Assembly: GCF_016406145.1 (NCBI RefSeq)
Contig: NZ_CP066306.1
Coordinates: 2,852,001-2,916,000 of the forward strand
From: Pseudomonas putida
GTDB taxonomy: Bacteria; Pseudomonadota; Gammaproteobacteria; Pseudomonadales; Pseudomonadaceae
Reading direction: 5' to 3'
Length of the DNA stretch: 64,000 nucleotides
Each line of letters begins with the position of its first letter. Positions within the stretch are counted from its first letter, which is position 1. The translations under genes were made by a program, and so were the position numbers. Shown here piece by piece: positions 18,163 through 37,814 of the stretch. Under the pieces are notes generated by a model that saw only the letters and a program-made list of their open reading frames with translations, was not told the origin of the DNA and searched no databases.

Positions 18163-19107
18163 TCAGGCGTCCAGCACCAGGCGCGCACTGCGCGACGCCG
18201 AGACGCACGGCGTGATCCATTCGCCGCTGCTGCGTTGAACTTCTGTCAGGCACTCGTCACGGTGCTCTGGCTCGCCCTCGATAACCCGGCACATGCACGC
18301 ACCGCAAATGCCCATCCCGCACGAGATGGGCAGGTCCACCCCGACCCGCGCAGCGGCCTGCAGCAGGCTTTCGCCGGCTTGCACCTGGACCTCACGCCCG
18401 CTGCGCTGCAACACCAGTGTGCAGCTGGAGTCGGCCTGGGCTGCAGGTTCGGCAGGCTTGAAGTGCTCGCGGTACAAGGCCGACGCTGGCCAGCCATGGG
18501 CGAAAGCGGCCTGCTCCACACTGTCCATGAACCCTGCGGGCCCACAGCAATACAGGCTGGCTTGGGGCTGCCAAACGGGCAAAAGCCCGCTCAAGGCTTG
18601 CTTGACCTGCGCGGCGCGCAAGCCGCTGAACACTTCGATCGGCAGGTTCTGGCGCTGGATCAGCGGCAGCTGTCGCGCGTCCTTGGTGAAATACAGCAGG
18701 CGCACCGCGCGCCCTTGCGCCAGGCATTGGCGGTACATCGGCAGCAGGGGCGTGATGCCGATCCCGGCCGCCAGCAATGTCACTGGGCCCGCCCCCGGTT
18801 GCAGGGCAAACAGGTTGCGCGGGGTGCCGACCTCGATCCGTGCGCCCAGACGCAGGTGCTCGTGCAACCACTGTGAACCGCCGCGCGAGGCAGGCTCACG
18901 CTTGATGCCCAGGTACAGATGGCCCTCTTCGGGCAGGCTGACCACGGAGTATTGGCGGACCAGGCCGTTGCCCAGGCGCAGGTCGACATGGGCGCCGGCC
19001 GCCCAGCTCAGCGGCAGCGGTGCGCCGCCCGGAGTGCCGAGTTCGACACCCAGCACGTCGTCAGCTTCCAGGCGCAAGGCGCGTACCTGCAACGAGGTCC
19101 AGCTCAT
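18163..19107 (-). CDS. Rieske-oxygenase reductase, phthalate-dioxygenase-reductase type
   Basis: A 314-residue three-domain reductase: an FMN-binding beta-barrel (about 1-100, with RQYSVVSLP), an NAD-binding domain (about 105-215, with LLAAGIGITPLLPM), and a C-terminal plant-type [2Fe-2S] domain whose ligands are visible in SCGMGICGACMC plus a later Cys. It would pass electrons from NADH to the Rieske oxygenase encoded by the same operon. It starts within the stop codon of the deaminase gene (ATGA overlap) and is the last gene of the leftward operon. Confidence 0.92.
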   Translation of the reverse strand: MSWTSLQVRALRLEADDVLGVELGTPGGAPLPLSWAAGAHVDLRLGNGLVRQYSVVSLPEEGHLYLGIKREPASRGGSQWLHEHLRLGARIEVGTPRNLFALQPGAGPVTLLAAGIGITPLLPMYRQCLAQGRAVRLLYFTKDARQLPLIQRQNLPIEVFSGLRAAQVKQALSGLLPVWQPQASLYCCGPAGFMDSVEQAAFAHGWPASALYREHFKPAEPAAQADSSCTLVLQRSGREVQVQAGESLLQAAARVGVDLPISCGMGICGACMCRVIEGEPEHRDECLTEVQRSSGEWITPCVSASRSARLVLDA

Positions 19108-20534
19108 GCGCGCACCCCCGCAGCCCGCTGCAGGCGCAGCACGGCCTCACGGGCTTGGCTACCCAGTTCGGCGAGGTCCAGGCCGGGGATCGTGTCGTTG
19201 TCCACGCTCAGGCGCCCACCTACCAACAAGGCGCACAAGGTCGGCCGGCCACCGCCCACGACGGGCGCAATTCCCGGGTCGTGCAAGCCGAAGTAGCGGG
19301 GCTGGTCCAGGCGGTAAACTGCCAGGTCCGCTGCCATGCCAACCTCCAGCGTGCCAAGCGCGTTCAGCCCCAGCACCTGCGCGCCACCGGCGGTTCCCCA
19401 ACGCACCACGTCTTCCACGCTGGCGGCATGGGCGCCGCCTTCCAGCTCGCCGCCTGCATAGGCGGGCAAAGCCCGCTCGCCAGCCTTGGCCCGCTGCATC
19501 AGCCAGGCGGCGTGGGTTTCGCTGATCATGTCGCAGGCTTCGTTGGAGGCAGCGCCGTCCACACCGATCGAAATCGGCATGCCTGCCGCTTCCATGGCCA
19601 GGATATCGGCAATACCGCTGCCCAAGCGCCCGTTGCTCTGCGGGCAGTGGGCAATGCCGGTACCGGTAGCGCCCAGTAGCCGGATTTCCTCGGGGCTGAG
19701 CTTGACCAGATGGGCGAACCACACGTCTGCGCCGAGCCACTCGTGCTCCGCGCAGAACGTCACGGGTGACAGGTTGTAGCGGCGTTGCACCTCGTTCTGG
19801 TACTCCACCGTTTCGCTCAGGTGGCTGTGCAGGCGGATGCCCAGCTTGCGTGCGGCGCGGGCGGTTTCGCGCAGGTGCTCTGGCGGCATCGAGTAAGGCG
19901 GGCTGGTGGGCGCCATCACCACCCGGCGCCAGGCGTCGGGGGCTGGGTCGTGGTAACTGCGCACCAGCCGCCCAACGTCATCAAGGTACTGTTCGAGGGT
20001 TTCTGGGCCGGCACTGGCGGCGCCTTCGGCTTGGCGCACCTGGGTTGCGCCGCCCCGGCACAGCACGAAGCGCAGGCCCAGCCGTTCTGCCTCCTCGAAC
20101 AGAATCTGCGCGCTGTCGAAGGCCATGCCTGGCAGGTACAGGTAATGGTGGTCGGCGACCGTGCTGCAACCGGAGCGGGCAAGCTCTACCAGGCCGATAC
20201 GCGCGGCCAGGCGGAAACTGTGCTCATCGAACAGGCCACGGTAGCGATAGGGTACCGCGCCCAACCACGCCCCAAGGCTTTGATCGATGCCCGCCGGGAT
20301 CCCCTTGAGCAGCGACTGGAACAGATGATGGTGGGTATTCACCCAGCCTGGGTAGACCACGCAGTCGGTGGCATCGAGCACCTGCTCACCCGCCAGCGGT
20401 TGCAGGGCACCGAGGGCAGCGATGCGCCCGTGGCTGATACGGATGTCCGGCCCGGCATGGCGGGCGGCTGCCCCGCGCAGGCCGGTGAGGATGGCACTGG
20501 CGTTGCGGATCAGCCAGCTGTCTGAATGCTTCAT
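19104..20534 (-). CDS. 8-oxoguanine-deaminase-like amidohydrolase
   Basis: A 476-residue metal-dependent hydrolase of the cytosine-deaminase/TrzA-AtzA group. Metal-binding features include His68-X-His70 (VNTHHHLFQSLLKGIPAG), HSHLSET, FAHLVKL and SIGVDGAASNE. The N-terminus (NASAILTGLRGAAARH) and the motif GTGIAHCPQSNGRLGSGIA closely follow the Pseudomonas 8-oxoguanine deaminase family as I recall it (P. aeruginosa PA0142). Such an enzyme converts 8-oxoguanine to uric acid and ammonia; isoguanine or a related oxopurine is an alternative substrate. The SD GGAG lies 6 bases before the chosen ATG. It overlaps the reductase gene by four bases. Confidence 0.85.
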   Translation of the reverse strand: MKHSDSWLIRNASAILTGLRGAAARHAGPDIRISHGRIAALGALQPLAGEQVLDATDCVVYPGWVNTHHHLFQSLLKGIPAGIDQSLGAWLGAVPYRYRGLFDEHSFRLAARIGLVELARSGCSTVADHHYLYLPGMAFDSAQILFEEAERLGLRFVLCRGGATQVRQAEGAASAGPETLEQYLDDVGRLVRSYHDPAPDAWRRVVMAPTSPPYSMPPEHLRETARAARKLGIRLHSHLSETVEYQNEVQRRYNLSPVTFCAEHEWLGADVWFAHLVKLSPEEIRLLGATGTGIAHCPQSNGRLGSGIADILAMEAAGMPISIGVDGAASNEACDMISETHAAWLMQRAKAGERALPAYAGGELEGGAHAASVEDVVRWGTAGGAQVLGLNALGTLEVGMAADLAVYRLDQPRYFGLHDPGIAPVVGGGRPTLCALLVGGRLSVDNDTIPGLDLAELGSQAREAVLRLQRAAGVRA

Positions 20535-20550
20535 AAGGAGCTCCAAGGGC

Positions 20551-21354
20551 TTAACCCAGTTCACTTTCGTGCCAGTGGCGCAGGCTCAAGCGTGCCAGCA
20601 GGGCCATCAGGCTGAACAATGCGACGCCGGTCAGGGCGATCAGCACCAAGGCGGCGAACAGCCGCGGAATGTTGAGCTGAAAGCCCGCTTGCAGGATCTG
20701 GTACGCCAGCCCGGCGCCGGTGCCACCGGTGCCGGCCACGAACTCGGCCACCACGGCGCCGATCAATGCCAGGCCACTGGCGATCCGCAGGCCGGCGAAG
20801 AAGCACGGCAAGGCACTGGGAATACGCAGGCGCAGCAGCACCTGCCAGCGGCTTGCGCGATTGAGGCGGAACAGGTTGAGCAGCCCCGGGTTGACGCTGC
20901 GCAGGCCCAGCACGGTATTGGCGATGATCGGAAATACTGCGACCAGGGTGGCACAGATCACCAGCGCCAGGGTGGTGTCGCTGCACCAGATGATGATCAG
21001 CGGTGCAATCGCCACCACGGGCGTCACCTGCAGCAATATCGCGTAGGGGAACAGGCTGGCTTCCACCAGCCGGCTCTGCACGAACACGAATGCGGCCAAG
21101 GTGCCGATGACGACTGCGAGGGCAAATGAGAGGAAGGTGATCTTCAGGGTCATCCACAGCGCCCCGAGCAGCATCGGGCCGTCTGTGATAAGCGTGCGGC
21201 CAATGTCGGCCGGTGATGGCACCAGGTAAACCGGCACTTGCCAGGCAATGCAGGCCAGCTGCCAGAGGCCCAGCAGCACGGCGCCGACCAGCAGCGGCGA
21301 AGCGATGCGCAGCACCGTGGGGTTGTTTAGCCAGGGGGTAGAAGGTCGACTCAT
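20551..21354 (-). CDS. ABC transporter permease, nitrate/taurine/pyrimidine type
   Basis: A 267-residue inner-membrane permease with about six membrane segments and the BPD_transp_1 EAA-like loop (LRLRIPSALPCFFAGLRIASGLALIGAVVAE is its region, about 185-215). The family moves thiamine precursors, taurine, nitrate or oxidised pyrimidines and purines. It pairs with the ATPase gene 36 bp upstream and the binding protein at 23377. It starts at an ATG with GAGAG seven bases before it. Confidence 0.9.
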   Translation of the reverse strand: MSRPSTPWLNNPTVLRIASPLLVGAVLLGLWQLACIAWQVPVYLVPSPADIGRTLITDGPMLLGALWMTLKITFLSFALAVVIGTLAAFVFVQSRLVEASLFPYAILLQVTPVVAIAPLIIIWCSDTTLALVICATLVAVFPIIANTVLGLRSVNPGLLNLFRLNRASRWQVLLRLRIPSALPCFFAGLRIASGLALIGAVVAEFVAGTGGTGAGLAYQILQAGFQLNIPRLFAALVLIALTGVALFSLMALLARLSLRHWHESELG

Positions 21355-21390: not shown

Positions 21391-22245
21391 TCAAGCAGGT
21401 TCGCCGTTGGCCTGGGCCAGCAGCCGGGACAGGTGGGCGCACTGCGCGATGAAGGCCGGGGAGGTGCGGTAGGCCTCGTCCCGCTCCAGCGGGCCGTCGA
21501 TGGGCACATCGGCGATCACCCGCCCGGGCCGGGCGCCCATCACCACCACCCGCGACGACAGGTACACCGCCTCGAAGATGCTGTGGGTGACGAATACCAC
21601 GGTCAGGTCGCGCTGGGCCCAGAGCTGACGCAGGTCGCTGTCGAGCTTGTTGCGGGTGAACTCGTCCAGGGCGCCGAACGGCTCGTCCATCAGCAGCAGG
21701 TTGGGCTCGGTGGCCAGCGCCCGGGCGATCGATGCGCGCATCTGCATGCCGCCAGACAACTCGCGCGGGTAGGCCTGGCCGAACGCGCCCAAGCCAACCA
21801 GCTCCAGCGCAGCCTGTACCTTGGGCTGGCTGTGGGCTTTGGGCATGCCCACAAGGTCCAGCGGCAGGCGCACGTTGTCCTGCACCCTGGCCCAGGGCAT
21901 CAAGGTCGCCTCCTGGAACACCATCGCCAGGCTGCGGCCAGCACCGCTGGCCAGTGGATCGCTGCCTGGGGCATCCTTGCCCCACCAGCGCACGTGGCCG
22001 GCCGAGGGCTGTTCGAGGCCGGCGAACATTTTCAACAAAGTGCTTTTGCCGCAGCCGGACGGGCCCAGCAACGACACGAACTCGCCGCGCTGGATCGCCA
22101 GCTTGACGCGGTGCAAGGCGACAGTGCCGTTGCTGTAGGTCTTCTCGACCTGGTTGGCGAACAGTGGCGTGTCGCTACCCAAGGCGTTGGCGTTGGGTGG
22201 TGCCTGCAGCTGGGCGCAGGTTTCGGACAGGGTCTGCATCAACAT
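21391..22245 (-). CDS. ABC transporter ATP-binding protein
   Basis: A 284-residue ATPase with Walker A GPSGCGKST, Q-loop FQEATLMPW, signature LSGGMQMRASIARAL, Walker B LLLMDEPFGALD and the switch His in FVTHSI. The N-terminal 40 residues are a non-conserved extension. The start is the ATG preceded by GGGGAG (spacer 6); the frame is open 15 codons further up. It energises the permease of the same operon, for a purine- or pyrimidine-like substrate by context. Confidence 0.9.
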   Translation of the reverse strand: MLMQTLSETCAQLQAPPNANALGSDTPLFANQVEKTYSNGTVALHRVKLAIQRGEFVSLLGPSGCGKSTLLKMFAGLEQPSAGHVRWWGKDAPGSDPLASGAGRSLAMVFQEATLMPWARVQDNVRLPLDLVGMPKAHSQPKVQAALELVGLGAFGQAYPRELSGGMQMRASIARALATEPNLLLMDEPFGALDEFTRNKLDSDLRQLWAQRDLTVVFVTHSIFEAVYLSSRVVVMGARPGRVIADVPIDGPLERDEAYRTSPAFIAQCAHLSRLLAQANGEPA

Positions 22246-22311
22246 GGCGCTCTCCCCAAAGGTCATGAGCGGTTGCGTATGCCCCGGCACACCAGGGCGC
22301 GGAACAGGCGG

Positions 22312-23337
22312 TCAGTGGCTGGCGAACACTTCGCTTTCGCCATGGGCTTCGAGCAGGCCCAACAGTTGCCGGCGGATCACCAGGCCTGGCTTGTCCGAGG
22401 GCATGTGCAGCTCGACACGCCGCCGGGTATCGACGCAGGCGTCCGGGTCGGTGGCTTCGAGGATGTCACGGTCTTCGGCGGTGATCGCTGCGTCCCAGTC
22501 GATCAGCGCCTGGGTCGGGCAGTCAGCCTCGCTGTCGTTGCGATAGAGCCACTGCACCAGCATCAGCCGGCCGTCATCGATCGGTGTGGCGCAGTTGTAG
22601 ATGATGTGGTGGATGCCGCTGTCCGGGTACATGCAGCCGAAGCGTCGGGAGAACGGCAGGTAGTAGCGATTGACCAGGTGACGCTCGGTGATCGGCGCGC
22701 GGGTGCCGGTAATGGCAAAGCTTTCTTCAGGGTTGCGGATAGGCACGCGGGTTTCGGCTTCAAAGCCGTAATCGGTTTCGCGAAACTCATAGCTGGCCGG
22801 TTGCGGCTGGTCGAACAGGCCGAAGTTGGCCTTGTGCACGAAGGAGAAATGCGAGTTGTCGAAAGAGTTCTCCATCACCCGCAGCGGGCTGGTTTTCCAC
22901 TCTTCGTAGAACTGGAAGATGCGCCGGTAGCCGGGGGCGCCGTCTTCCGGGAAGTCCGGGATCGGCTGCAGCGGATCGTCCAGCGCGACCCAGGCATAGC
23001 CATACTTTTCCTGGCAATGGTAGGCCTTGACGGCCGCGCCCGGCGGTATCGCCCCCGTCGGGTTCTGCGGGATCTTCACGCAGGCGCCGCTGCAGTCATA
23101 TTCCCAGCCGTGGTAGCCGCAGGCGATATTGCCGTCTTCGCTGACGAAGCCCTTGGACAGTTTGGCGGTGCGGTGGCAGCAACGGTCGCGCATCGCTACC
23201 GGTGTGCCATCGGGGCGCTTCCAAAGGACCAGGGCTTCACCGAGCAAGGTGAAGGGTTTTGGCCCGTCGTCCAGGGCTGCCATGGGCAGCAGGGCGTACC
23301 AGAAGCGTCGCAATACAGGTTGTTTGGTGACCAGCAT
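22312..23337 (-). CDS. Rieske non-heme iron oxygenase, large subunit
   Basis: A 341-residue oxygenase. The Rieske [2Fe-2S] ligands are Cys53/His55 (RCCHRTAKLSKG) and Cys73/His76 (CGYHGWEYD). The mononuclear iron site in the second domain is seen as Asp160, His163 and His168 (NSFDNSHFSFVH). Length and pattern fit single-subunit oxygenases of the phthalate/vanillate O-demethylase group, which hydroxylate or demethylate. With a purine-type deaminase and transporter in the same operon, a modified (for example N-methylated or oxidised) purine is a reasonable but unproven substrate. GAGGAAA precedes the ATG. Confidence 0.92.
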   Translation of the reverse strand: MLVTKQPVLRRFWYALLPMAALDDGPKPFTLLGEALVLWKRPDGTPVAMRDRCCHRTAKLSKGFVSEDGNIACGYHGWEYDCSGACVKIPQNPTGAIPPGAAVKAYHCQEKYGYAWVALDDPLQPIPDFPEDGAPGYRRIFQFYEEWKTSPLRVMENSFDNSHFSFVHKANFGLFDQPQPASYEFRETDYGFEAETRVPIRNPEESFAITGTRAPITERHLVNRYYLPFSRRFGCMYPDSGIHHIIYNCATPIDDGRLMLVQWLYRNDSEADCPTQALIDWDAAITAEDRDILEATDPDACVDTRRRVELHMPSDKPGLVIRRQLLGLLEAHGESEVFASH

Positions 23338-23376: not shown

Positions 23377-24390
23377 TCAGCGGCTGGCGGCCTGGACAGT
23401 GTCGGGCTGCACGTTCAGGCCTTGCACGAAGCGGGTGGTATAGGCCTTTTGCCAAGGGGCGGCGGCGCCGAGCAGGCCGGCCTGGACCATGAAGTCGCGG
23501 GTGGCTTGCCAGCGGGCGTCGTTCATCGTGCCGATGCCGTGGCTGGCAGCGTCGCCCCCTGTGACCAGCTGGTATTGCTTGAGCGTCGAGACGCCCCACG
23601 CCAGCAGCTCATCACTCATGTTGGGGTTGTCGCGCTTGATCAGCGCATTGCCCGCAGCGGGATTGGCCAGGTAGCGTTTCCAGCCCTCGAGCGAGGCGCG
23701 GACAAACCCGGCGACGCGCTCGGGATGCTGGTCGATGACGTCCTGGCGGGTGACCACGGTGGAGCCGTAGGGCGGGTAACCTGCATCGGCGAACAGGAAG
23801 AAGTTGGGTTTCTGGCCTGCCTTGATGGCCTGGAACAGTTCCGAACTGGCGTAGGCCTGCTGGGTGGTGTCGGCGCCGGCGAGGAAGGGCTGCAGGTTGA
23901 AGGTGTACGGCCGTGCCTGGCTGTCCTGAAGCTGGTACTTGCCTTTGAGCCAGGGCCACCAGGTTTGCTGGCCGGACGTGGACACCAGCACCTGCTTGTT
24001 TTGCAGGCCGTCCAGGCCATTGACATCGGCGTGCGTCATCAAGCCCTGCGGGTCGCCCTGAAATGGCGCAGCCACCGCGACCACCGGCAGCCCTTGCTCC
24101 ACGCTCTTGAGGATCTGCAGGTCGTAGTTGACGATGAAGTCGGCTTGCTTGCTGACCAGCAACTGCATGCCATTGACCTGCGGGCCGCCCATGCGGATGG
24201 ACACATCCAGGCCTTCTTTCTCATACAAGCCATCGGCCACAGCTTGGTAAAAGCCGCCCTGTTCTGCCTGGGCGTACCAGGAGGTGAGCAACACGACCTT
24301 GTCGTTGGCCATGGCCAGGGAGGCGCAGCTGAACACTGCTGCGCCAAGCAGCGAGCGAAGCGGGTAAGTCAAAGCAAAGCGGTTTTTCAT
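23377..24390 (-). CDS. NMT1/THI5-like ABC substrate-binding protein
   Basis: A 337-residue periplasmic binding protein. The signal peptide ends near ASLAMA (residue 28). The mature N-terminus has the NMT1/THI5 motif LTSWYAQAEQGGFYQAVADG, and the Trp/Tyr-rich pocket positions (TWWPW) are visible. Family members bind thiamine precursors, pyrimidines, taurine and oxidised purines. It is the first gene of the leftward operon, 195 nt downstream of the structured leader at 24585-24630. The start has GGAGAA 6 bases upstream; a longer frame to 24492 is non-coding in character. Confidence 0.92.
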   Translation of the reverse strand: MKNRFALTYPLRSLLGAAVFSCASLAMANDKVVLLTSWYAQAEQGGFYQAVADGLYEKEGLDVSIRMGGPQVNGMQLLVSKQADFIVNYDLQILKSVEQGLPVVAVAAPFQGDPQGLMTHADVNGLDGLQNKQVLVSTSGQQTWWPWLKGKYQLQDSQARPYTFNLQPFLAGADTTQQAYASSELFQAIKAGQKPNFFLFADAGYPPYGSTVVTRQDVIDQHPERVAGFVRASLEGWKRYLANPAAGNALIKRDNPNMSDELLAWGVSTLKQYQLVTGGDAASHGIGTMNDARWQATRDFMVQAGLLGAAAPWQKAYTTRFVQGLNVQPDTVQAASR

Positions 24391-24584
24391 GATTGTTCTC
24401 CACCTCGATTCGAAATGCGCCAGGTGTTCGGGAACACGCCAGCGAAAACCGAGCGGAGAGAGAACGCAGCAAGAGGAGGGTGCACACAGCATGCAGCAGC
24501 CACGGCCGACATTTCTCTACTTGCCCAGGGCCGTCAGGCCGCGCGCAAATCATCCGCTCGGATGTACGCCCAATCCAAGGCGCA

Positions 24585-24630
24585 AGAGCAATGCCCCATG
24601 CCATTTCTGGCACTGACCGCTTCTACTCGA
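24585..24630 (-). ncRNA. Structured 5' leader, candidate NMT1-motif (xanthine) riboswitch, copy 1
   Basis: This 46-nt minus-strand segment begins at the predicted sigma-54 start (about 24630) and is 45/46 identical to the plus-strand segment at 24869-24914. It folds as a hairpin: short outer AGC/GCU helix, asymmetric internal loop, GUC/GGC helix, second internal loop, then UGCCA/UGGCA capped by GAAA. Relative to the other copy, A is replaced by G (plus-strand C24594), changing a U-A to a U-G pair and keeping the fold. It precedes an NMT1/THI5-type gene, the context from which the NMT1 motif is named; that RNA is reported to bind xanthine and uric acid. The family assignment is from memory, not from a covariance search. 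Confidence 0.72.
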
Positions 24631-24639
24631 AGGCAGATG

Positions 24640-24657
24640 AAGCGAGAAGCGTGCCAA
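24640..24657 (-). promoter_or_regulatory. Sigma-54 promoter of the ABC/Rieske/deaminase operon
   Basis: The minus strand reads TTGGCACGCTTCTCGCTT: GG of the -24 element at 24655-24654 and GC of the -12 element at 24643-24642, with the required 12-bp separation. The -24 half is perfect; the -12 half is TCGC instead of TTGC. The predicted start is about 24630, exactly the inner edge of the inverted-repeat arm. Confidence 0.72.
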
Positions 24658-24744
24658 TGTACGCAAACCGCCAAAGCCGGGCTGTTCAAGCCCAGCCGGG
24701 CATTGCAAGGGCAGGACAGTGATCCGGGAAGGTGCAAGGCAGGA

Positions 24745-24768
24745 GCGCACGGCGCTATTAAAGTGCGC
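24745..24768. promoter_or_regulatory. Palindrome between the divergent sigma-54 promoters
   Basis: GCGCAC and GTGCGC separated by 12 bp (ggcgctattaaa). It lies about 75-90 bp from each -12/-24 element, where an enhancer-binding protein could serve both promoters. The spacing does not match a canonical NtrC site, so the binding protein is unknown. Confidence 0.35.
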
Positions 24769-24842
24769 AATGCTGAGTCGGCCTGGTGCTCACTAATTCA
24801 TTAAATTGGCCACAATCACCTATCTAGACTGTATTCGATCAG

Positions 24843-24860
24843 TTGGCACGCCCCCTGCTA
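24843..24860 (+). promoter_or_regulatory. Sigma-54 promoter of the Tsx-like gene
   Basis: TTGGCACGCCCCCTGCTA: GG of -24 at 24845-24846 and GC of -12 at 24857-24858, at exact sigma-54 spacing and close to the TTGGCACG-N4-TTGCA consensus. The predicted start is about 24870, the inner edge of the right inverted-repeat arm. Sigma-54 use suggests expression under nitrogen limitation. Confidence 0.85.
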
Positions 24861-24868
24861 GGGCACAG

Positions 24869-24914
24869 TCGAGTAGAAGCGGTCAGTGCCAGAAATGGCA
24901 TGGGACATTGCTCT
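24869..24914 (+). ncRNA. Structured 5' leader, candidate NMT1-motif (xanthine) riboswitch, copy 2
   Basis: Plus-strand copy of the 46-nt leader. Pairings seen: AGC 24878-24880 with GCT 24910-24912; GTC 24882-24884 with GAC 24904-24906; TGCCA 24887-24891 with TGGCA 24896-24900; loop GAAA 24892-24895. The internal loops (A85/G86 opposite T901-G903, and G81 opposite A907-T909) are identical in the other copy, as expected for a ligand pocket. It lies at +1 of the sigma-54 promoter and 122 nt before the Tsx-like start codon. Confidence 0.72.
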
Positions 24915-24948
24915 GGCGGCATCACGCCGCACACCCGGCAAGGGTGGC

Positions 24949-24968
24949 GCCACGGTTCGTACCGTGGC
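24949..24968 (+). promoter_or_regulatory. Leader hairpin upstream of the Tsx-like gene
   Basis: Perfect 8-bp stem GCCACGGT / ACCGTGGC with loop TCGT, 35 nt after the candidate aptamer. No T-run follows, so it is not an obvious intrinsic terminator. It may be part of an expression platform or only stabilise the leader. Confidence 0.45.
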
Positions 24969-24991
24969 CAGAGGAGAGGTCTGTCCGCTGA

Positions 24992-25032
24992 ATCCCTTGC
25001 TGGTGAACCTCACCGACCTCGACCCAAGGGAT
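24992..25032 (+). promoter_or_regulatory. Shine-Dalgarno-sequestering hairpin of the Tsx-like gene
   Basis: ATCCCTTG (24992-24999) is perfectly complementary to CAAGGGAT (25025-25032), which contains the Shine-Dalgarno AAGGG of the Tsx-like gene. The loop holds a second hairpin, GGTGA/TCACC (25002-25006/25010-25014). When folded, the ribosome site is hidden, a plausible translational expression platform. Confidence 0.55.
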
Positions 25033-25036
25033 GCAC

Positions 25037-25843
25037 ATGAAACTCAACCCTCTTGCCTGCCTAAGCTACTGCTTCCTGCCCCTCTGCGCCCTGGCCAGTG
25101 CCGGCGCGCAGGCCAGTCCGCTGATGTGGTACGACAACAGCCTGAGCTACCTGTACGGCCACAACTACAAAGTCGACGGCACCGGCAACGACATCCAGCA
25201 GACCGTCACCTTCGAACACGCCAGCGGCTGGACCTGGGGGGATGTGTTTATGTTCGTCGACAACAAGTGGTCCAACGGCTTGTCGGGCAATGACGGGCAT
25301 AGCTACTACGGTGAGTTCTCCCCGCGGTTGTCGCTGGGTAAGGTCAGCGGTCAGAACCTGCGTTTTGGCATCGTCAAGGACGTACTGATTGCCGCTACCT
25401 ACGAGCGCGGCGAGGGGCGCACTCGCAGATACCTGTTGGGGCCTGCCGTGGACTTGACTATCCCGGGGTTCGATCGCTTCTCGCTCAATACCTATTACCG
25501 CAAGCCTGACGGGATTACCGGCAAGGCATCGGGGCAATGGCAGATCAACCCGACCTGGGCAATGACCATACCGCTAGGGCGATCGGACATCCTGTTTGAC
25601 GGATACCTGGAGTGGTATGTGAATGACGTTGGCAGCAAGGGCACGTCGGATTACGTGGCCAAGAGTTTCCACTTCAATCCGCAGTTCAAGTACGACGTGG
25701 GCAAGGCCCTCGGGCACACGCCGAAGCGCCTTTATGCGGGGCTGGAGTGGGATTATTGGTCGGACAAGTACGGGATCGAGGATAGCCACGGATTCCCGAC
25801 AGATCAGAATGCGGTGAGCGCGTTGGTCAAGGCGCATTTCTAA
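25037..25843 (+). CDS. Tsx/OmpK-like nucleoside-type outer-membrane channel
   Basis: A 268-residue outer-membrane beta-barrel: signal peptide ending near AGAQA (residue 25), mature N-terminus SPLMWYDNSLSYLYG, alternating aromatic strands and a C-terminal Phe (ALVKAHF), the recognition signal of the BAM machinery. The motif WTWGDVFMFVDNKWS and overall length match the Tsx/OmpK family of nucleoside channels. It probably lets purines or nucleosides reach the periplasmic binding protein of the divergent operon. The start is the second ATG (AAGGG, spacer 6). The expression signals are described at 24843-25032. Confidence 0.88.
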   Translation: MKLNPLACLSYCFLPLCALASAGAQASPLMWYDNSLSYLYGHNYKVDGTGNDIQQTVTFEHASGWTWGDVFMFVDNKWSNGLSGNDGHSYYGEFSPRLSLGKVSGQNLRFGIVKDVLIAATYERGEGRTRRYLLGPAVDLTIPGFDRFSLNTYYRKPDGITGKASGQWQINPTWAMTIPLGRSDILFDGYLEWYVNDVGSKGTSDYVAKSFHFNPQFKYDVGKALGHTPKRLYAGLEWDYWSDKYGIEDSHGFPTDQNAVSALVKAHF

Positions 25844-26047: not shown

Positions 26048-27670
26048 ATGCGCCTGCGCCATCTCAACATCGCTACCCGCTCTTACCTGAGTTTCAGCCT
26101 GATCGCCGCCCTGGTCGTAGTGCTCGGGCTGTTTTCCATCAACAAGATCTCCAGCATGCGCGAAGCCGTGGTGTACACCGAGCAGGTGACCAACGTTGGC
26201 ACCCGCTACCTGGGTGAGGTCCGCAGCCACATGCTTGGCCTGCGCATCATCACCCTGCGCATGGCCATTGCCCGCGAGCCCGCGCAGCTGACGCCGACCC
26301 TGGCGCGCCTGGAGGTGCTCAAGGGCCTGCTCGACAAAGGTGTCGAGGGCTACGGTGCGGTAGTGCCGGCGGCGGGCAAGCCGGCTTTTGCCGAGATGCA
26401 GCGGTTGATCGACCAGTACCGTGTGCTGCTCGATCAATACAAGGGGTTGTCCGAGCAAAACCAGGTACCGCAGATGCAGGCGATGCTCAGCGGCGCCATG
26501 CAGGACATTTCCAACCGGATAGGTGAGCTGTACGACAACCTGGTCAAGTTCAGCAGCGACACCGCCGAACAGCACACCGCCCATGCCCGCGCCGAGTACC
26601 AGCGTGCGCTTTACCTGACCTTCGCTGTGATCGGCCTGGTGCTGGTGCTGACCATCGGCCTTGCCTGGTTGCTGACCCGCAGCATCGTCAGCCCGCTGCG
26701 TGAAGCCATAGGCGTGGCACAGAACATTGCTGAGGGCGACCTTTCCCACACCGTGCATGCCACTGGCCGCGACGAGGCGACCCAGTTGATGCATGCCCTG
26801 GCGGCCATGCAGGCCAGCCTCAAGGATGCCCTGCGGCTGATCGGCGATTCTTCTCATCAGCTGGCCGCGGCCAGCGAGCAGATGTCGGCGATTACCCAGC
26901 AAACCTCCCGCGACCTCAACCGCCAGAGCGACGAGATCCAGCAAGCCGCCACCGCCGTCACGCAGATGAGCGTCGCGGTGGAAGAGGTGGCGCGCAACAC
27001 CGTCAGCACCTCCGAAATCTCGCGTCAGTCCGAAGACGCGGCGCGCCGCGGTCGTCAGCGGGTGGGTGAGGCGATCAGTTCGATCGGCAAGATGAGCCAG
27101 GATGTGCATGAGGCGTCGCGGCAGATCGAAGCACTGTCGGTGCAGTCGCAGGAAGTGGGCAAGGTACTCGATGTGATCGGTGCAATTGCCGGGCAGACCA
27201 ACCTGCTGGCGCTCAACGCAGCGATCGAGGCGGCGAGGGCGGGTGAAGCGGGCCGCGGCTTTGCCGTGGTGGCTGATGAAGTCCGCGCGCTGGCGGCGCG
27301 TACCCAGAGCTCGACGCTGGAGATCGAGGAAATGATCAACGCCATTCGCAGCGGCACGGCGCGGGTGGTGGAGTCGATGCACAGCAACAGCCAGCAGGTG
27401 GGGCATACCCTGCAGGTGGCTGAGCTGGCCGGGCAGGCACTGGATGAGATCACCGATGGCGCGACCACGATCCACGAGCGCAATCTGGTGGTGGCCAGTG
27501 CCACTGAAGAACAGGCACAAGTGGCTCGAGAAGTCGATCGTAACCTGTTGAATATTCGTGATCTTGCCGTGCAGACCTCCGAGGGCGCAGACCAGATCAG
27601 CACGGCTAGCCAGGAGCTGGCCAGCTTGTCGATTGGCTTGAACGGGATGATGAAGCGGTTTCAGCTCTGA
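26048..27670 (+). CDS. Methyl-accepting chemotaxis protein
   Basis: A 540-residue chemoreceptor: TM1 (about 10-30), a periplasmic four-helix-bundle ligand domain (about 35-190), TM2 (about 191-213), HAMP (214-268) and a long signalling domain with the hairpin tip sequence IGAIAGQTNLLALNAAIEAA (near 380) that binds CheA/CheW. The periplasmic domain is about 150 residues, 4HB-like in size. The ligand is unknown. It follows the Tsx-like gene after a hairpin, so it is likely transcribed separately. Confidence 0.93.
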   Translation: MRLRHLNIATRSYLSFSLIAALVVVLGLFSINKISSMREAVVYTEQVTNVGTRYLGEVRSHMLGLRIITLRMAIAREPAQLTPTLARLEVLKGLLDKGVEGYGAVVPAAGKPAFAEMQRLIDQYRVLLDQYKGLSEQNQVPQMQAMLSGAMQDISNRIGELYDNLVKFSSDTAEQHTAHARAEYQRALYLTFAVIGLVLVLTIGLAWLLTRSIVSPLREAIGVAQNIAEGDLSHTVHATGRDEATQLMHALAAMQASLKDALRLIGDSSHQLAAASEQMSAITQQTSRDLNRQSDEIQQAATAVTQMSVAVEEVARNTVSTSEISRQSEDAARRGRQRVGEAISSIGKMSQDVHEASRQIEALSVQSQEVGKVLDVIGAIAGQTNLLALNAAIEAARAGEAGRGFAVVADEVRALAARTQSSTLEIEEMINAIRSGTARVVESMHSNSQQVGHTLQVAELAGQALDEITDGATTIHERNLVVASATEEQAQVAREVDRNLLNIRDLAVQTSEGADQISTASQELASLSIGLNGMMKRFQL

Positions 27671-37140: not shown

Positions 37141-37814
37141 GGTAGAAACCCCTTCTCATGAATGCCTGCAATGTGTTGTGTGGCTAAGGCAGCTGAATGC
37201 TGCAGAGGCAGCAAAGTTCAGAGGAGAGGGCAGGCGGTATCAGCTAACGGTTGCGCAGCGTGTGCAGCGCTGGAGACCAGACAGCCCGATGCTCTGATTA
37301 TCGAGCTGCTCGATTGCGATACCGCGCATCTGAAGTACTGGCTGAACAGCTTGGCCGCCAGCCACGCTACGGGCAGCTTGCTCTGTCAGTACCATGACCA
37401 CCTCGGGCAGCAGGGTATTTAGCGCATTGCGGCACGGGAAAGTTTTGATCATGGCCTCTGTAAAGGGTTTCTTGGAACCAGCAGCGATATCACGCAGGGC
37501 ATCAAGCGCGGTACGGGCCCATCCCCCTGAACACAGCAAGGGATAGTGCCAACCATTGCAAACTTATCCGGGCACTTGAATTGTTCACGTAATGAATTGC
37601 ACTCGCATTTCAATACACGTGGGTAAAACTGCCCAGCTGATAGCTACTCAAGACGGCTATCGTTTCACACAAGAAATGATTAGAAAAATTTTCCTTCTTG
37701 CAGTTTTTTCGTGCCCGGTAAAACCTTGTCTTGTGACGCCGGGCCCCTCTGACGGTTAGCAGCCGCCATGTCGGAGTCATAGTTGTTTTGACTACGACTA
37801 TAAAGGAGGGGCTC
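37141..37814. other. Gene-poor gap upstream of terC
   Basis: This 674-bp gap holds no convincing gene. A minus-strand frame of 70-99 codons (37240-37452 or to 37539) is described separately. The right half (about 37570-37800) is AT-rich compared with the flanks and contains T-runs and a hairpin GCCCGG / CCGGGC (37713-37718 / 37739-37744) with a 20-nt loop. It probably forms the long leader and promoter region of the terC-like gene. Confidence 0.5.
37240..37452 (-). CDS. Possible small ORF of unknown function
   Basis: A 70-residue frame beginning MIKTFPCRNALNTLL; a TTG at 37539 would extend it to 99 residues. The helix-rich composition (VVMVLTEQAARSVAGG, IAIEQLDNQSIG) is plausible for a small soluble Pseudomonas protein, but there is no convincing SD and I recognise no family. 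It may be a decayed gene. Confidence 0.28.
   Translation of the reverse strand: MIKTFPCRNALNTLLPEVVMVLTEQAARSVAGGQAVQPVLQMRGIAIEQLDNQSIGLSGLQRCTRCATVS

Follow-up and report, generated by a model that had tools for sequence, protein, structure and literature searches.

The window, by which we mean the whole 64,000-nucleotide stretch of Pseudomonas putida DNA that was analysed, contains two divergent transcription units whose products relate to the transport and oxidation of purines. Transcribed leftwards, on the minus strand, is an operon headed, as the earlier sequence-only reading of this DNA had proposed, by a gene for an NMT1/THI5-like substrate-binding protein (23377..24390; PF09084, 102.1 bits). 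It continues with a Rieske oxygenase (22312..23337; PF00355 and PF19112), the ATPase (21391..22290; PF00005) and the permease (20551..21354; PF00528) of an ABC transporter, the amidohydrolase PRK12393, kin of 8-oxoguanine deaminase (19104..20564; NF009059, 783.3 bits, cut-off 543), and a ferredoxin reductase (18163..19107; PF00111), the likely partner of the Rieske oxygenase. Transcribed rightwards, on the plus strand, is tsx, encoding a Tsx-type nucleoside outer-membrane channel (25031..25843; PF03502, 30.9 bits, cut-off 27.2); the listed open reading frame begins at ATG 25031, within the likely ribosome site, and ATG 25037 looks the better start. Two further features are noted in passing: a chemoreceptor with a four-helix-bundle sensor (PF12729) 3' of tsx, at 26048-27670 on the plus strand, and a terC RNA (RF03067, 47.5 bits, cut-off 39.9) at 37731-37783 on the same strand. 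A chemoreceptor follows tsx in G215 alone among the genus stretches, which reach at most about 570 nt past tsx, and a purine specificity of this receptor would be a guess.

Between the two units lies an inverted repeat with arms at 24585-24630 and 24869-24914, whose claimed near-identity holds exactly (45 of 46 positions); when the arms are extended to 24581-24630 and 24869-24918, 48 of 50 positions match. By comparison with the Rfam model, both arms are xanthine (NMT1) riboswitch aptamers, predicted to bind xanthine and urate. Indeed, the RF03054 covariance model (cmscan, gathering cut-off 36 bits) aligns over its full length, 1-56, with 24866..24918 on the plus strand for the tsx transcript (55.8 bits) and with 24581..24633 on the minus strand for the NMT1/Rieske/ABC/amidohydrolase operon (54.7 bits), and at the threshold used the P. 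putida genome holds these two matches and none elsewhere. The alignment places P1, P2a and P2b with the two conserved junctions, as well as one non-standard pair in P1 that is marked likewise in the family, and the genes downstream of both aptamers are of the purine transport and oxidation types that go with RF03054. The NMT1/xanthine assignment made from the letters is thereby upheld, both by the model and by the conservation of the loops among relatives. The sole difference within the 46-nt core falls in P2a, as U-A in the tsx copy and U-G in the NMT1 copy, so that the pairing is kept as had been foreseen; by hand alignment, the differing base is position 37 in the crystal-RNA numbering, P2a has G13-C38 where the crystal RNA has U13-A38, and the pocket nucleotides A6, A9, G10, C11, G35, A39, U40 and U41, taken from the relevant part of the crystal-structure report (PMC8266621), are kept in both copies. 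The RF03054 matches and the purine-type operon rule out a thiamin reading of the NMT1 gene, and a chance inverted repeat, a cruciform or a terminator becomes superfluous as an explanation when both arms score as full aptamers.

How alike the two arms are was compared within the genus sample, i.e. the 18 genomes with matches out of 398 Pseudomonas-genus genomes searched. Within each of G000, G215 and G045 the P2b hairpin is common to both arms (GCCAGAAAUGGC, GCCAGACAUGGC and GCCGAAAGCGGC; arm pairs L001/L002, L007/L022 and L003/L020), and it differs from genome to genome; the arms are unlike each other in the remaining seven genus pairs. From these sequences, which come from three genomes only, the near-identity looks like gene conversion or concerted evolution within one clade. 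In a further genus genome, G148, two xanthine riboswitches (C24:67500 and 88758) are separated by about 21 kb and do not form a divergent pair.

The sigma-54 consensus is TGGCACR-N4-TTGCW, and transcription starts 12 nt beyond the C of the -12 element. Elements of this kind lie just inside the two arms, at 24844..24859 on the plus strand for tsx (TGGCACGCCCCCTGCT, 11/12; TGGCACG-CCCC-CTGCT, with GG at 24845-24846 and GC at 24857-24858) and at 24641..24656 on the minus strand for the NMT1 operon (TGGCACGCTTCTCGCT, 11/12; TGGCACG-CTTC-TCGCT, read from 24656 to 24641), with 190 bp between the -24 elements; the sequence-only reading had located both to within about 1 nt. Since GG-N10-GC sites scoring at least 11/12 on either strand of the 64 kb number only two, exactly these, directly upstream of the aptamers, we do not regard the pair as a chance occurrence. 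The predicted +1 positions are 24870 (plus, tsx) and 24630 (minus, NMT1 operon), which puts them, as had been claimed, at the inner edge of each arm, P1 opening with GAG 1 and 2 nt further on (at 24871 and 24628, respectively). The genome encodes RpoN (PF04552, 236.6 bits, one match).

In both leaders the last bases of the aptamer, ...UUGCUC, make up the 3' strand of P1, and this strand has a second potential partner. In the tsx leader, CUCUGGC (24911..24917, plus), made up of the P1 3' strand and its extension, would form the 5' strand of a 7-bp alternative helix with GCCAGAG (24967..24973, plus), exclusive with P1; in the NMT1 leader the same element reads CUCUUGC (24582..24588, minus) and its partner GCAAG-U-AGAG (24515..24524, minus) has one bulged U, an ungapped search of this leader giving a 4-bp match only. 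In the relatives, CUCUGGC could pair with GCCAGAG in tsx leaders and CUCUUGC with GCAAGAG in NMT1 leaders. Forcing the alternative helix rather than P1 costs an extra 2.5 kcal/mol in the window's tsx leader and 3-5 kcal/mol in its NMT1 leader; the exclusive helix is thus supported by the matched changes seen across relatives and not by folding energy in the window. In fact, leaders pair better with their own downstream element than with permuted ones, by duplex energies, in 29 genus leaders (z -5.2, 0/2000 permutations) and in 120 GTT-type leaders, mostly from Burkholderiales (z -10.5, 0/2000), in tests that treat leaders as independent and ignore their relatedness. Control segments gave z -1.8 to 2.3 in the genus set and z -2.5 to -4.5 in the GTT set, the latter deviant yet less so than the helix itself.

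Which way the ligand would switch these leaders was considered with an equilibrium model of 163 of 197 leaders, the rest being dropped because their start or ribosome site was unclear. We hold as a closely balanced possibility, to be taken tentatively, that ligand turns expression OFF, as published, so that product feedback would be laid on top of nitrogen control. This is the direction of the Hydrogenophaga intermedia reporter and of its authors' reading in the relevant passages (PMC7373994), and the window's own NMT1 leader leans slightly the same way in the model, its ribosome site being 0.00 open with P1 and 0.12-0.16 open without; access likewise falls with P1, by 0.04-0.13, in the NMT1 arms of four relatives from its clade. 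Against it, the published result rests on a single aptamer mutant in two media, with no xanthine addition described in the passage concerned (PMC7373994), and the pairing in short-leader relatives favours the opposite direction. The ligand feedback suggested by the sequence-only reading therefore fares unevenly, the window's NMT1 leader and the published direction agreeing with it and the short-leader relatives not.

That opposite direction, in which ligand turns expression ON, is possible but on the unlikely side. On this view, in the absence of xanthine the extended P1 3' strand would cover the ribosome-binding site or shut the leader, and xanthine would capture that strand in P1; together with NtrC this would make an AND gate, open when the cell is nitrogen-starved and purine is present, which suits nitrogen-controlled genes for catabolism. 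For 45 short leaders, pairing of the P1 3' strand with the leader's own ribosome-site region comes to -7.83 kcal/mol vs -5.77 kcal/mol for those of other leaders (z -7.4; 0/5000 permutations, and the same 0/5000 on 43 distinct rows, relatedness again being ignored), and the flanks change in step (CUCUUGAAG/UUUCAGGAG, CUCUUUC/GAAGGAG, UCUGGAAA/UUUCCAGG), although a flank-only test is weaker (52/5000). Because P1 and the alternative helix share CUC, ligand should free the ribosome site in these short leaders. In agreement, forcing P1 renders the site more open by >0.2 in 39 of the 163 modelled leaders and more closed by >0.2 in 3, and at lengths of 20-50 nt the figures are 24/37 and 0/37, the two modelled states being asymmetric in that P1 is forced in one and its 5' strand is left off in the other. 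If only the sign of the change is counted, access goes up with P1 in 110 leaders and down in 53. However, 121 of the 163 leaders show no clear change, the published reporter gave OFF, and neither leader of the window nor its clade relatives behave as an ON switch would require; in two relatives of another clade, L009 and L015, access rises with P1 (by 0.15 and 0.38). The tsx ribosome site of the window is 0.00 open in every modelled state, buried in its own hairpin (AUCCCUUG...CAAGGGAU, 24992..25032, plus; minimum free energy fold, likely start codon 25037). The five outer pairs of this hairpin are identical in 9/9 aligned sequences, the window included, and RNAalifold on these nine found 9 pairs, none of them changed on both sides, so that the hairpin draws no support from covariation.

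Divergent pairs like that of the window recur widely. In a wider pattern-based set, drawn from a locus scan that is a sample of at least 120 loci, there are at least 76 distinct divergent aptamer pairs, and among the matches listed 60 of 120 named loci have one. The text pattern misses UA-for-CA variants (L010, L011, L012, L023 and the minus arms of L016 and L017), and for the same reason the genus pairs G071 and G073 lie outside the 76. Both arms have a sigma-54 site within -100..-22 in 73 of the 76 pairs and at the fixed position in 63, and in these 63 the distance between the -24 elements ranges from 9 to 575 bp. It is only 9-23 bp in five, all from Betaproteobacteria (L073, L126, L108, L040 and L047), which is too tight for two holoenzymes given the sizes of their footprints; in such pairs polymerase binding is probably mutually exclusive, with no space for an intervening activator site.

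The spacers between the arms also bear on the activator. NtrC binds sites of the consensus TGCACYA-N3-TRGTGCA. Two candidate NtrC-like sites lie between the window's promoters, at 24751..24767 (GGCGCTATTAAAGTGCG, 10/14) and at 24720..24736 (10/14), the GTGC half of the former being aligned in 9/9 Pseudomonas spacers and the GGTGC half of the latter (24731-24735) identical in 9/9; as 10/14 is attained in 21% of 238-bp segments drawn at random from the window, these sites are not significant alone. Across relatives the picture is sharper: among the 46 spacers that exceed 150 bp the top 6-mers are GCACCA (32 vs 5.2 expected) and GGTGCA (28 vs 4.7), counted without motif input, though the NtrC motif had been scanned beforehand, and with expectations from single-base shuffles. 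On their sequence, these two words are the halves of the NtrC site. The full palindrome at ≥11/14 is present in 27 of 76 spacers vs 3.4 in dinucleotide shuffles, and versions with gaps of 0-2 and 4-9 bases in 1-7 of 76, the enrichment being confined to the canonical 3-base gap. Furthermore, the sites concentrate 50-200 bp upstream of the aptamer, with 13, 34 and 22 per 50-bp bin, and 1.2, 4.8 and 2.2 for other-gap palindromes in the same three bins, in a count where a site between two arms may score once per arm.

It is improbable that these promoters are activated by a sigma-54 enhancer-binding protein different from NtrC. The weakness of the window's own sites and the 20 strong PF00158 matches in the genome leave room for one, but the most enriched words across relatives are NtrC half-sites, the palindrome is enriched at the NtrC spacing alone, and the search for a PF00158 activator gene within the 64-kb window found none. 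NtrC itself is encoded in the genome (TIGR01818, 791.1 bits, cut-off 558.6, one match above it). In Burkholderia cenocepacia, xanthine dehydrogenase and a urate oxidase cluster are given among the common NtrC/sigma-54 targets in the relevant section (PMC5491218), so that the purine-nitrogen physiology is backed independently, and the ntrC mutant of that species is described there as growing better, not worse, on uric acid (PMC5491218). The pertinent part of a regulon survey likewise has COG0402 deaminases and COG0600/COG1116/COG0715 transporters as sigma-54 regulated (PMC12316311).

The coupling of promoter to aptamer can be followed beyond the window. The genus and phylum aptamers are Rfam matches chosen without regard to promoters, and L151 and L152 (below the cut-off) and one phylum match without a locus are left out of the counts. 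In the genus, a sigma-54 site lies at -34..-27 from GTAG in 29 of 29 matches, the window's two counted; in the phylum sample it has the same place in 21 of 28, or 23 of 28 counting up to 75 nt upstream. In the pattern-based set, among the matches listed, a site of ≥9/12 occurs at -33..-28 from GTAG in 153 of 197 non-redundant aptamers and is lacking at this place in 44, eleven control windows at the same threshold yielding 0-7 of 197 each. Here, loci ≥80% identical (ungapped) over the upstream 60 nt had been removed, which reduced 226 to 197, and aptamers <140 bases from the start of a locus or <120 from its end are omitted. Chance, or carriage as passengers of a copied cassette, is an exceedingly improbable origin of these sites: the genus loci do share descent, but a single offset recurs in those 153 loci, whose upstream 60 nt are <80% identical, with the controls as just given. 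The sigma-54 promoters proposed from the letters are thus reinforced on three sides, by the genus conservation, by the fixed offset of the wider set and by the NtrC-type sites upstream.

The lineages differ in this respect. Among the matches listed, the fixed-place site is found in 103 of 105 betaproteobacterial and 9 of 21 alphaproteobacterial aptamers, and in 7 of 32 from named Gammaproteobacteria, rising in these to 26 of 32 over -75..-28, where from the control windows 2-3 of 32 would be expected by chance in the added stretch. AGT-type aptamers, 8/14 alphaproteobacterial and 4/14 named gammaproteobacterial, have the fixed-place site in 0 of 14. Other riboswitches seldom have any such site in the upstream 110 nt (FMN 0/29, TPP 2/29, glycine 4/30), and any 6-bp window holds at most 2, two of the four glycine sites sitting at -30 and -29; these control loci were 30 of 31 FMN, 30 of 48 TPP and 30 of 41 glycine matches, the incomplete L200 and L218 being omitted. 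As a separate observation, six alphaproteobacterial loci (L046, L048, L074, L085, L100 and L135) carry two aptamers on the same strand, the first with the fixed-position sigma-54 site and the second, of the AAGCAGUCA type, without; 3' of the second, in those inspected, is what we take to be a dioxygenase-like gene.

Taken together, it is quite probable that the intergenic region serves purine scavenging as a compact control region with two inputs, combining NtrC/sigma-54 with xanthine aptamers. Under nitrogen shortage, phosphorylated NtrC bound between the operons would, as the motifs suggest, activate sigma-54 polymerase at both divergent promoters, and each transcript would start within a few nucleotides of P1; from such starts, both mRNAs would therefore begin with the same purine sensor. 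Binding of xanthine or urate would stabilise P1, whose 3' strand would otherwise pair downstream, and because this strand can pair in either place, ligand and second helix would be mutually exclusive. The choice between them may then jointly set, in whichever direction, how far the uptake and oxidation operon and the Tsx channel are translated. In the beta-, gamma- and part of the alphaproteobacteria examined, promoter and aptamer would behave as one conserved cassette, often as a divergent pair. A more specific proposal is that the members with sigma-54 promoters, which form most of the class, supply the RNA side of an AND gate built with NtrC/sigma-54, with the aptamer fused to +1 and xanthine freeing the ribosome-binding site to turn expression ON, the promoters of the tightest pairs (5/63, 9-23 bp) also competing for one polymerase; as a whole this is rather unlikely.

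If the two-input region operates in this manner, it bears on a puzzle raised in the corresponding section of the original description of the class by Yu and Breaker in 2020, namely why cells should monitor xanthine when no genes for degradation of oxidised purines were under the switch (PMC7373994). The frequent link to NtrC/sigma-54 offers a possible answer, which is that the class serves to scavenge nitrogen from purines. A riboswitch class linked in this way to a single alternative sigma factor and a single activator would be undescribed in the open-licence literature, where we found no riboswitch tied to sigma-54 or NtrC in a like manner, and in both divergent mRNAs the sensor would be the structure transcribed first. 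Moreover, the leader analysis makes the published OFF direction open to a simple test.

In respect to known systems, the RNA class, its genes and its pairing are already described, and the promoter wiring of the class is apparently new. As far as the relevant passages go, the RF03054 class has the same aptamer and pocket bases as the window (PMC7373994; PMC8266621) and shares with it NMT1/tauA, a Rieske-type dioxygenase, the PRK12393 amidohydrolase and tsx (PMC7373994). A word search through PMC7373994 and PMC8266621, main texts only, found neither NtrC nor RpoN; 'sigma' occurs once in each, in the supplier Sigma-Aldrich, and 'promoter' only for the T7 and thiC reporter promoters. The sequence-only reading had held the arrangement to be undescribed, which stands for the promoters and does not for the opposed pair itself, two adjacent aptamers in opposing orientations having been drawn, as in the window, for H. 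intermedia S1 (PMC7373994, Fig. 5 legend). The same species and strain is represented in the present set by L032, both arms of which have the fixed-position sigma-54 site; the earlier report names one locus in an inset legend, without promoters, whereas here 76 pairs are described with promoters and spacings. The NtrC/sigma-54 regulons have purine genes as targets, as is proposed for the window, and unlike it carry no riboswitch link in the relevant passages (PMC5491218; PMC12316311), the word 'riboswitch' occurring 0 times in the former and once, within a reference, in the latter. Finally, tandem riboswitch logic gates resemble the window in bringing two inputs to one control region; the window would differ from them in having one RNA sensor per mRNA joined to a sigma-factor input, and two divergent mRNAs under such control.
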